Shown: positions 4,083-30,125 of the stretch, one piece after another | Layout of the letters: each line of letters begins with the position of its first letter | How positions within the stretch are numbered: the stretch's first letter is position 1 | Source: Chloroflexota bacterium | GTDB taxonomy: Bacteria > Chloroflexota > Limnocylindria > P2-11E | Direction: 5' to 3' | NCBI GenBank assembly: GCA_005881885.1 | Contig: VBDX01000131.1 | Location: 31,352-95,351 of the forward strand | Length of the DNA stretch: 64,000 nt | The notes under the pieces: model-generated | Told to the model about the DNA's origin: nothing | The model's database searches: none | What the model saw: the letters and a program-made list of their open reading frames with translations, nothing else | Position numbers and translations under genes: made by a program

Positions 4083-4490
4083 TCAATTCGTGCGTCTGCC
4101 CTGTTGCTGCTGCTGCATTTGCACGATCGCGACCGGCAAACCGCCGATGGAGCTGCCGTCGACCTCGAGGTCGAACTTGTGGACGCCGTAGCTCGTGAAG
4201 CTCATGTTGTTGAGCTCGACGATCACGTTGACGTCCTGCCCGGCCACGGCGTGCACGGAGATCTCGGGCGGATTCGGCATCGCCTGCTGCCCGTCGGGTC
4301 GGAGCAGCCGCACGCGGACAGTGTGGGCGCCGACCTCGAGGCCAAGGATGGCGACGACGAACATTCGTGGATGCTGCGCCGGCAGCCCACTCACCGAGAT
4401 GTTGCGGAAGATCCCCATGAGGCTGACCTTTCCGTCCTGTCCGACGAGTGCGTGGTCGCAGAGCGCGGCGAGCCGGATCTCGGCCGTCAC
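4083..4490 (-). CDS. Conserved hypothetical (DUF6941-like)
   Basis: GTG start overlapping leuS stop; AALCDHALVGQDGKVSLMGIFRNI... Confidence 0.7.
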   Translation of the reverse strand: MTAEIRLAALCDHALVGQDGKVSLMGIFRNISVSGLPAQHPRMFVVAILGLEVGAHTVRVRLLRPDGQQAMPNPPEISVHAVAGQDVNVIVELNNMSFTSYGVHKFDLEVDGSSIGGLPVAIVQMQQQQQGRRTN

Positions 4491-6928
4491 GACCGCTGCT
4501 TCGTGACGATGTTCACCAGACGGTCCTGCACGACCACGACGCGGTCGACGATACGACCGTCGAGCGCCGCCTTCGCGCGGGGGCTCGCCAGGGCCATCTC
4601 TTGCGCCTGCGCCTGTGGCAGCCCGGCCGCGGCGGGAATGCGGTCGCGGACCTTGCCGTCGACCTGGACGACCAGGGTGATCTCCTTCACCGCGGCGAGC
4701 GCGGGATCGAACGCCGGCCAGGATTGCTGGTGTACCGAGCCCCTGCCGCCGCGTCGCTCCCAAAGCTCTTCGGCAAAGTGCGGGGCGAAGGGCGCCAGCA
4801 GGAGCACCAGCGTGTCGATCCCATATTCGCGGCTTGTGCCGCGGGCGCGCGAGAGCGTCGTCGAGAGCTCCATCATCGCCGCGATCGCGGTGTTGAAGTG
4901 GTAGCCCTCGAGGTCCGCGGTCACCTTCTGGATCGTCCGGTGGACCGCGCGGTCGACCGCCTCGTCGCGACCCCCACTCGCCTCATCCACCTTCTCGATC
5001 CCGAGGCTCCAGACGCGATTCAGGAAGCGATAGGTGCCTTCGATGCCGGCGGCGTCCCAGTCCGAACCATCCGTCCAGGGACCCATGAACATCAGGAACA
5101 ATCTCAGGCTGTCCGCACCGTACCGTGCGACGTACTCGTCCGGCGCCTGGACGTTGCCGCGGGACTTCGACATCTTGCGGCCGCCGAAGACGATGTTGCC
5201 CTGGTTCCGCAGGTGCTTGAAGGGCTCGCCGAACCAGAGGTAGCCCATGTCGCGTAGCGCCTTCGCCACGAACCGCGCGTAGAGCAGATGCAGGATCGCG
5301 TGCTCGATCCCGCCGGTGTAGCGCGCGACCGGCAGCCACTTGCGGCCTACCTCCGCGTTCATGAACAGGCGGTCGTATTTCGGATCGGGATAGCGATAGA
5401 CGTACCAGGACGAGTCCACGAAGGTGTCCATCGTGTCCGTCTCGCGACGCGCCGGCTTGCCGCAGCGCGGGCAGGTCGTGCGAACGAACGACTCGACCTT
5501 CGCCAGCGGGTTACCTCCCTCGACGGTGAACGGCGCATCCCGCGGCAGGACGACCGGTAGGTCCTTCTCGGGCACCGGAACGACGCCGCAGTCGTCGCAA
5601 TAGATGATCGGGATCGGCGTGCCCCAGTAGCGTTGGCGCGAGATGAGCCAGTCACGCAGGCGGTAGATCACCGACGGCCCGCCGATGCCGCGGCGTTTGG
5701 CCTCCTCGGCGACGGCTCGCCGGCCCGCTTCGGTCCGGGTGCCGTTGAAGGGGCCGCTGCGGACCATGACGCCCTCACCGACATACGGCGCGGACATACT
5801 CGGTTGCTCGGCCCCGTCCGGCGAGATCACCTCGCGGATCTCCAGGCGGTGGCGGTTGGCGAAGTCGAAGTCGCGCTCATCGTGCGCGGGAACGGCCATG
5901 ATCGCGCCGGTCCCATAGGTCGACAGCACGTAGTCGCCGACCCATATCGGTATGCGCTCTCCGGTGAACTCGTTCCGTGCGAACGCGCCGGTCTCGACGC
6001 CGGTCCTCTTCCGCTCGGTCGAGGTCCGCTCGATCTCCGCCATATTCCGGGCGCGAGTCACGTACGTGTCGACCGCAGCGCGGTGGTCCACAGTCGTGAT
6101 CTTCGCGACGAGCGGGTGCTCCGGCGCGAGCACCATGAAGGTCGCACCGTAGATCGTGTCCGGCCGCGTGGTGAAGAACTTGATGCGCTCGCCGGCGTGC
6201 CCGTCCACCGCGAACGAGATCTCGGCGCCCTCCGACCGGCCGATCCAGTTCGTCTGCATGACGCGGACGCGTTCGGGCCAGTCGATGCCGTCGTAGCGCA
6301 AGAGCTCGTCGGCGTAATCGGTGATGCGGAAGAACCACTGCTCGAGATCGCGCTTGACGACGGGCGTCTCGCACCGCTCGCAGCGCCCCGCGATCACCTG
6401 CTCGTTCGCGAGCACGGTCTGATCCTTCGGACACCAGTTGACCGGCGCGTTCGCGCGGTAGGCAAGCCCCTTCTCCAGGAACTTCAGGAAGATCCACTGG
6501 TTCCACCGGTAGTACTCGGGGTAGCAGGTGACGACCTCGCGGCGCCAGTCGATCGAAGCGCCCATCATGCGGAACTGATCCCGCATGTGGGCCATGTTCT
6601 TCTCGGTCCACGCCGCCGGATGCATCTTCCGTTTGATCGCCGCGTTCTCCGCCGGTAGCCCGAAAGCGTCGAAGCCCATCGGGAACAGCACGTTGTGCCC
6701 ACGCATGCGCAGGAAGCGGGCTGCGGCATCCGATGGCGCCATGGCGTACCAGTGCCCGACATGGAGCTCTCCCGACGGGTACGGGTACATCGTCACGAAA
6801 TAGAAGTTCGGCTTGTCGGAGACGTTCGGCGTCTCGTGGAGGCCGGACGAGCTCCAGCGCTTTTGCCATTTGGCCTCGACGGCCTGCGGCGAGTAGCGTT
6901 CGGTCTTCTTCTTTACTTCGCTCGTCAT
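4487..6928 (-). CDS. leuS: Leucyl-tRNA synthetase
   Basis: YPYPSGELHVGHW, WGTPIPIIYC, KMSKSRGN motifs; class I LeuRS. Confidence 0.98.
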   Translation of the reverse strand: MTSEVKKKTERYSPQAVEAKWQKRWSSSGLHETPNVSDKPNFYFVTMYPYPSGELHVGHWYAMAPSDAAARFLRMRGHNVLFPMGFDAFGLPAENAAIKRKMHPAAWTEKNMAHMRDQFRMMGASIDWRREVVTCYPEYYRWNQWIFLKFLEKGLAYRANAPVNWCPKDQTVLANEQVIAGRCERCETPVVKRDLEQWFFRITDYADELLRYDGIDWPERVRVMQTNWIGRSEGAEISFAVDGHAGERIKFFTTRPDTIYGATFMVLAPEHPLVAKITTVDHRAAVDTYVTRARNMAEIERTSTERKRTGVETGAFARNEFTGERIPIWVGDYVLSTYGTGAIMAVPAHDERDFDFANRHRLEIREVISPDGAEQPSMSAPYVGEGVMVRSGPFNGTRTEAGRRAVAEEAKRRGIGGPSVIYRLRDWLISRQRYWGTPIPIIYCDDCGVVPVPEKDLPVVLPRDAPFTVEGGNPLAKVESFVRTTCPRCGKPARRETDTMDTFVDSSWYVYRYPDPKYDRLFMNAEVGRKWLPVARYTGGIEHAILHLLYARFVAKALRDMGYLWFGEPFKHLRNQGNIVFGGRKMSKSRGNVQAPDEYVARYGADSLRLFLMFMGPWTDGSDWDAAGIEGTYRFLNRVWSLGIEKVDEASGGRDEAVDRAVHRTIQKVTADLEGYHFNTAIAAMMELSTTLSRARGTSREYGIDTLVLLLAPFAPHFAEELWERRGGRGSVHQQSWPAFDPALAAVKEITLVVQVDGKVRDRIPAAAGLPQAQAQEMALASPRAKAALDGRIVDRVVVVQDRLVNIVTKQRS

Positions 6929-6947
6929 GTCGACCTCCTTTCCAAAT

Positions 6948-6985
6948 GAAAAAGGTCTTTCGTCCTAAGAGGACGGAAAGACCTT
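6948..6985 (-). terminator. Intrinsic terminator of leuS T-box leader
   Basis: AAGGTCTTTCCGTCC-TCTTA-GGACGAAAGACCTTTTT. Confidence 0.93.
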
Positions 6986-7024
6986 CCGCGGTACCACCTC
7001 AGTTAAGAGCCGGGCCCTGCGGCC

Positions 7025-7099
7025 TGGTGGAGCTGGCGGGATTCGAACCCGCGACCCCCACACTGCCAGTGTGATGCGCTCCCACTGCGCCACAGCCCC
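7025..7099 (-). tRNA. tRNA-Ala (anticodon GGC), CCA encoded
   Basis: GGGGCTG TG GCGC AGTGGGA GCGC A TCACA CTGGCAG TGTGG GGGTC GCGGG TTCGAAT CCCGC CAGCTCC ACCA; G3-U70 present. Confidence 0.96.
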
Positions 7100-7292
7100 G
7101 ATCGCTCTTCGCTCGAGCACGCTTCTAACGGGCGTGACCCCGGCGAGGGCTAGCGGCTAGGCCGTTCGCTCCCGCGGCTCCCGGGCGAGTTCAGCGTTCC
7201 CGCGACACCGGCTCGCACCCGACGCCGGCTCTCTTCACTCGAGGGATACGCGTACTGCTCCCGTTCGTGGCCGTTCGTGAAAAGTATACGGA

Positions 7293-29641: not shown

Positions 29642-29773
29642 GACGGCGACTTTAGATGGCCCACGGTCGCGTTTAGCCGCTTCGCGGTCCCTTTGTAGGC
29701 GCTTCGCGCCTTCCAGAACATCGTCGGCCGGCCGGAGTGAGCTGCGGCTCCCTCCGCCGGCCTCCTCGTCCTG

Positions 29774-30125
29774 TGGAGATGGGGGAGGGTCGAACTCCCC
29801 GTCCAAGGCCTGCGCGCGGATCGCGTCTACGAGCGTAGTCGGCGATTTTTTTCTCGCGGAATGAGGCGCGCACCGACACGCTCCTCGTTCTCGCCAGGCC
29901 GTGGATCTTTGGCCCGCCTACCGGCCGCTCGGCGGGCCGCAGCTCCGCTGATGGCGCCCTTCCCGGCCCGCGGAGCGGGGACCGGGAGGACGTCTCACTG
30001 ACTAGGCAGCGAGAGCGTAAGAAGTGTTGGCAGTTGTCTGCCTGCCGTTCGGATTAACGAGGAGGAACGGCGTTCCTCGGCTCGCGGCGGTCCGTTTGCG
30101 TGCCCTGTCGAAACCACGCATCCCC
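29774..30125 (-). ncRNA. ssrA: tmRNA, tag ANTSYALAA
   Basis: 5' GGGGATGCGTGGTTTCGACAGGG; tag GCC AAC ACT TCT TAC GCT CTC GCT GCC TAG (30031-30002); 3' GGGGAGTTCGACCCTCCCCCATCTCCA; acceptor GGGGAUG/CAUCUCC with G3-U70. Confidence 0.96.

Follow-up and report, generated by a model that had tools for sequence, protein, structure and literature searches.

A complete tRNA-Ala(GGC) gene nested in the leuS T-box leader of Chloroflexota, at the tip of the predicted Stem III

Bacterial tRNA genes can be co-transcribed with mRNAs, as in the metY-nusA and thrU-tufB operons of Escherichia coli, and an mRNA leader can mimic tRNA, as in the thrS operator of the same species. The leuS leader described here shares features with both. 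As in metY-nusA and thrU-tufB, a tRNA would be cut from the 5' part of a protein-coding transcript, but in those operons the tRNA precedes or flanks the mRNA, whereas the leuS leader has it within a conditional riboswitch, with the sensor on one side and the switch on the other. As in the thrS operator, a tRNA-like fold is found in the leader of a synthetase gene; however, the thrS mimic is read by the encoded enzyme, whereas the tRNA gene found here is genuine, apparently the only one of its kind, and serves an amino acid other than that of the enzyme. The remaining system is the leuS-class transcriptional T-box (RF00230), with which the leader shares the Stem I specifier loop, the AG and GGUG signatures, the CCGUUA region, the RRRNG-StemIII-AA motif, the UGGU bulge, the antiterminator/terminator and the position of leuS downstream. 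It differs from this class in that a complete 75-nt tRNA-Ala(GGC) gene caps the predicted Stem III. The nested-tRNA leader is a variant of the T-box and not a new class. In the open literature that was searched, we found no T-box described as containing a tRNA gene; a passing mention elsewhere is possible.

The window, that is the whole stretch of DNA that was analysed, comprises 64,000 nucleotides of a Chloroflexota contig (VBDX01000131.1), and leuS and its leader are encoded on its minus strand. The leader matches RF00230 at 7277-6966, over the whole model (1-219 of 219) and including Stem I, with 77.6 bits and E=2e-16. This score is below the curated (gathering) cut-off of 93 bits for RF00230, which is a curation threshold rather than a biological feature, and relatives with the same architecture reach it. 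The alignment skips 93 nt between the arms of Stem III, and tRNA-Ala(GGC) lies exactly within this stretch. The initial annotation of this locus, which had described an intact tRNA-Ala gene nested in a leuS T-box, agrees with these matches.

Read in the direction of transcription, the locus begins with a -10-like promoter box, TATACT (7283-7288), identified from its sequence and its conservation in the order. It is followed by the T-box 5' end and Stem I (7177-7277, model positions 1-103), with AGTA, AGAGAG and GGTGCGAG signatures and the leucine specifier codon CUC (7187-7189), which lies in the GAA-CUC-G/A context of nested leaders. The Stem II/IIA-B region, a CCGTTA hairpin and the linker (7115-7176) align with model positions about 104-160. 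Next come the Stem III purine string GAGCG (7110-7114), a sequence match to RRRNG, and the Stem III 5' arm AAGAGC (7104-7109), which pairs with 7010-7005. The tRNA-Ala(GGC) gene (7025-7099) was detected by both ARAGORN and RF00005; it is complete, with G3-U70 and an encoded CCA. Beyond it lie the Stem III 3' arm GCTCTT (7005-7010), recognised by its pairing with 7109-7104 and by covariation, and the AA of the RRRNG-StemIII-AA motif (7004-7003). The T-box motif or antiterminator, AACTGAGGTGGTACCGCGG (6986-7004), is placed by the RF00230 alignment, with the UGGU bulge at 6996-6993, and is followed by a predicted intrinsic terminator (6949-6985) consisting of a hairpin of -19.5 kcal/mol in RNAfold and then T5. 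The leuS Shine-Dalgarno sequence AAGGAGGT (6940-6933) precedes an open reading frame for a leucyl-tRNA synthetase of 813 aa (4487-6928), at most 56% identical to named leuS loci. The positions previously assigned to the promoter box, specifier, helix arms, tRNA, T-box motif and terminator all proved correct.

The terminator hairpin includes the 3' strand of the antiterminator, so that at the sequence level the two structures are mutually exclusive. The UGGU bulge fits a tRNA 3' NCCA: tRNA-Leu(GAG), which is cognate to the specifier CUC and is encoded in the window's genome, has A as its discriminator (read from locus L236). Read-through by uncharged tRNA-Leu is predicted for this leader. In unconstrained RNAfold predictions, the isolated segment formed the outer Stem III helix and not the full cloverleaf, and the minimum-energy structure of the whole leader is without Stem III.

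The 6-bp helix AAGAGC/GCTCTT had been noticed before and its coordinates stand, but it had been taken for a helix in the linker, whereas it corresponds to Stem III of the T-box, with the tRNA at its tip. The 5'-RRRNG-StemIII-AA-3' motif has been defined for T-boxes (PMC7778990, PMC7583486), and according to the latter paper it is required for the T-box aminoacylation sensor. In the window the order is GAGCG-AAGAGC-[tRNA]-GCTCTT-AA, in L171 it is GAGTG-GGTAGA-[tRNA]-TCTACC-AA and in L022 it is GAGCG-GACAAA-[tRNA]-TTTGTC-AA, so that tRNA-Ala(GGC) is predicted to cap Stem III inside this conserved motif. The RRRNG string lies at offset 0 from the helix in most nested leaders outside family f21. 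We examined covariation in Stem III with the arms anchored independently of pairing, using 32 distinct arm pairs from outside f21. Standard pairs occupy 82% of cells as opposed to 55% after shuffling, and the covariation is 0.669 versus 0.224 for shuffled arms, with none of 500 shuffles as high. When the partner arm is slid by one to three columns covariation is at most 0.21, and all six pairs show changes on both sides among the 32 distinct relatives. In f21 the helix and the RRRNG-AA motif are weak and poorly resolved. The spacers around the tRNA vary widely: that on the 5' side is 0-17 nt in most nested loci outside f21, and that on the 3' side ranges from 1 to over 80 nt.

We searched for leuS in 29 genomes of the window's order, mostly draft or metagenome assemblies as in the other comparisons, and found it in 28. 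In all 28, tRNA-Ala(GGC) is encoded on the same strand as leuS, preceded by Stem I features and followed by a T-box motif, so that the tRNA is inside the leader in relatives as well. A wider search, with a pattern of the tRNA 3' half followed by the T-box motif, matched a second family of the class (f5) and many other families of the phylum, and in all 30 phylum loci tested the downstream gene is leuS and the nested tRNA is Ala(GGC). Nesting occurs in at least 14 families (f1, f2, f5, f7, f8, f13, f15, f18, f21, f35, f37, f46, f54 and f80), a count that includes single leaders read from further families; their assignment to Chloroflexota is inferred from the named leuS loci among their rows in a LeuS tree. 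The specifier is CUC, as GAA-CUC-G/A, in 68 of 69 nested leaders, and the remaining one is cut by a contig end. Within the order, L113 from genome G001 scores 108 bits as a T-box with the tRNA inside, above the cut-off. The same nesting is present in Bacillota, where its breadth amounts to three named loci, all above the Rfam cut-off: Thermosyntropha sp. (L022, 133 bits) and Peptococcaceae BRH_c4a/b (L030 and L028, 127 and 125 bits). On the LeuS tree the nested state takes 8 changes for 72 rows, as opposed to 52 with shuffled labels.

Five further T-boxes of the window's genome (L002-L006), upstream of open reading frames read as pheS, valS, trpE, ileS and thrS, have no nested tRNA. Since all 28 order genomes with leuS have the nesting while these five T-boxes lack a tRNA, we conclude that the nesting is not due to chance. 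Conservation in the order, in other families and in a second phylum likewise rules out an insertion into a single genome or an assembly artefact, and the tolerated insertion suggested in the initial annotation fails if taken as an event in one genome, given how many families conserve the nesting.

Several f5 loci depart from this layout in other respects. In L147, L152, L164 and L168 an open reading frame of about 200 aa, identified by eye as GNAT-like acetyltransferase, lies between the nested-tRNA T-box and leuS and apparently shares the T-box switch with leuS. In L155 the T-box motif is degenerate (GCGTGG for GGTGG) with the tRNA and Stem III flanks kept, and in L157 it was missed by the search motif; the T-box may possibly be in decay in these two loci.

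The nested sequence has the properties of a genuine tRNA gene. It scores 66 bits with RF00005, against a cut-off of 29. The G3-U70 pair, the main identity element for AlaRS, is kept in 69 of 69 nested tRNAs, and acceptor pair 4 switches from G-C to C-G among relatives. Among the segments of the leader, conservation within the genus is highest for the tRNA (0.99), with 0.89 for Stem I/II and linker and 0.45 for the spacer. In a pattern search, 28 of the 29 order genomes each gave a single tRNA-Ala(GGC) copy, and only G020, which is 70% complete, gave none and has no leuS either. A second Ala(GGC) is present in nine of the large f21 genomes. In the window's genome the only other alanine tRNA in the inventory is Ala(CGC), and no Ala(TGC) was seen in the inventory of this draft assembly. 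(A tmRNA gene with the tag ANTSYALAA is also encoded in the window, at 29773-30125 on the minus strand.) The conserved fold, the G3-U70 pair, the change at pair 4 and the sole-copy status exclude a pseudo-tRNA, and that status among the genes found implies that the nested tRNA is processed, charged and used in translation.

Promoter and terminator signals suggest how the tRNA might be produced. In the order, every leader (28 of 28) has a -10-like box (TATACT, TACACT or TACAAT) placed 27-30 nt upstream of the AGTA of Stem I. In the linkers of the same 28 leaders, from Stem II to the tRNA, no -10-like hexamer exceeds 3/6 matches. The spacer between tRNA and T-box, where a transcription start would have spoken against the initial annotation, holds no promoter-like box in 27 of them and one such box in L109. 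A T5 run separates tRNA and T-box in 2 of 69 nested loci, and a T-run follows the T-box in 56 of 66. From this distribution of boxes and T-runs, synthesis of the tRNA in the window's order appears to begin at the leader promoter and to end at the T-box terminator or wherever leuS transcription ends. Because no other Ala(GGC) gene was found and no promoter-like box was seen apart from that 5' of Stem I, the tRNA would have to be cut from the leader whether or not leuS is transcribed.

We propose, with a probability of about 0.72, that the leuS leader is a dual-product T-box, in which one transcript serves as both gene switch and tRNA precursor. We infer leucine control, the order of events, processing and any benefit as follows. 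Transcription would start 5' of Stem I, and Stem I/II with the specifier CUC would recruit tRNA-Leu(GAG). RNA polymerase would then make tRNA-Ala(GGC), folding as the Stem III cap, before it arrives at the antiterminator/terminator. With uncharged tRNA-Leu bound, the antiterminator would form and leuS would be transcribed; with charged tRNA-Leu, transcription would stop at the T-box terminator. The 'off' transcript would then be a pre-tRNA and not waste, the T-box terminator doubling as terminator of the tRNA gene. RNase P and 3' processing would later excise the tRNA, severing the sensor from the leuS mRNA. This account assumes, from general kinetics, that the switching decision precedes RNase P, and also that the tRNA is freed in time from the antiterminated transcript. 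With only about 75 nt in the window between the tRNA 3' end and the end of the terminator, sensing, tRNA synthesis, decision and processing would be the simplest order. Polymerase passes the tRNA before it meets the terminator, so the tRNA should be made in either state, and leuS, but not tRNA output, should follow the leucine signal; a coupling of alanine tRNA supply to leucine starvation, as first suggested, is therefore not supported in that form.

Possible, although we do not prefer it, is that the tRNA is simply trapped: it would have landed once in a variable Stem III loop, after which the two functions became inseparable, leaving a frozen accident without regulatory or economic benefit. 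Stem III loops do vary naturally among T-boxes (PMC7583486), as do the spacers on both sides of the tRNA. Other lineages illustrate how the elements can be arranged. In some, the entire T-box, its Stem III a plain one, comes after tRNA-Ala(CGC) and/or tRNA-Ala(GGC), and others keep tRNA-Ala(GGC) upstream of leuS with no detectable T-box (L145, L146, L148, L150, L151 and L158 of f3/f4, L009 and L063). Among Bacillota, some have tRNA-Ala(GGC) adjoining leuS with no detectable T-box, and several have a T-box without tRNA. Entrapment is favoured by the lineages that keep the tRNA beside leuS with no T-box and by those with the tRNA outside the T-box. Against it, nesting has persisted in many families of both phyla, the LeuS tree needing few changes, although the lineages with the tRNA outside show that escape is possible.

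A T-box wholly 3' of the tRNA was also considered for the window; it holds for the Anaerolineae-like loci L012, L037, L052, L247, L251, L262 and L273 and not for the window. Six of these (L247, L251, L012, L037, L052 and L262) have tandem tRNA-Ala(CGC) and tRNA-Ala(GGC) 5' of the whole leuS T-box, and in L247 and L251 the second tRNA ends in its own terminator. In L181-L199 (f21), L244 and L245, a tRNA-Ala(CGC) lies 5' of Stem I in addition to the tRNA-Ala nested in the T-box.

The dual-product reading places processing after the decision. We consider it unlikely that the maturation of tRNA-Ala by RNase P and the T-box decision instead compete kinetically, so that the nesting would be functional and the leader would integrate leucyl-tRNA charging with RNase P and tRNA-processing capacity, each 'off' event yielding a tRNA unobtainable elsewhere. 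Rather improbably in our judgement, RNase P cleavage of the nascent tRNA might compete with antitermination: removal of Stem I and its tRNA-Leu before the antiterminator forms would force termination, and leuS would be sensitive to both RNase P activity and tRNA-Leu. All nested loci do have the RNase P site placed so that cleavage would part the sensor from the switch, and the Stem III pairing of 5' leader with 3' trailer could slow the enzyme, as has been reported for leader-RCCA pairing (PMC9433436). However, the published inhibition may not apply, as the pairing in the window lies past the unpaired GATC and CCA, and over the short distance to the terminator end polymerase would probably pass first.

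That the nested tRNA is itself a working part of the switch seems very doubtful. It might act as a cis decoy, its 3' ACCA competing for the UGGU bulge, which is close by in the window, or as a folding or timing element, the about 75 extra nt probably giving tRNA-Leu more time to bind before the decision. A decoy or reset through its own ACCA had been raised in the initial annotation, but two observations weaken the idea: no more than 7 of 28 order genomes (42 of 69 nested loci) encode the CCA, and spacer lengths differ greatly. Moreover, the tRNA 3' end is not free within the leader, related leuS T-boxes manage with a plain Stem III and no nested tRNA (L247 and L251), and the anticodon GGC cannot read CUC, which also excludes the nested tRNA as ligand of its own T-box.

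Least probable of all, and to us scarcely credible for the window, is a promoter of the tRNA's own in the T-box linker, giving two overlapping transcription units and not one dual-product transcript: most of the 19 f21 leaders (L181-L199) do carry a sigma70-like TTGTCG-N17-TATAAT box, or a sequence close to it, that overlaps T-box linker sequence and stands 40-52 nt upstream of the nested tRNA, but the order linkers have nothing comparable and conserve the TATACT box 5' of Stem I instead. In f21, a large-genome, Ktedonobacteria-like group in which Stem I of most leaders is also preceded by a box of its own resembling TATAGT or TATAAT, the internal box could drive the tRNA alone.

The T-box is an RNA that binds tRNA, and in these bacteria it houses a tRNA gene as well, where its aminoacylation-sensing domain has its tip, which indicates that Stem III is able to carry a whole folded RNA. 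On the dual-product reading, a riboswitch transcript that has been terminated is predicted to be useful as a precursor and not waste. The arrangement also poses a testable question, namely the order of co-transcriptional switching and RNase P processing on one RNA. For the organisms themselves, it would mean that an essential tRNA, for which no other gene was found, is expressed through a conditional leader.
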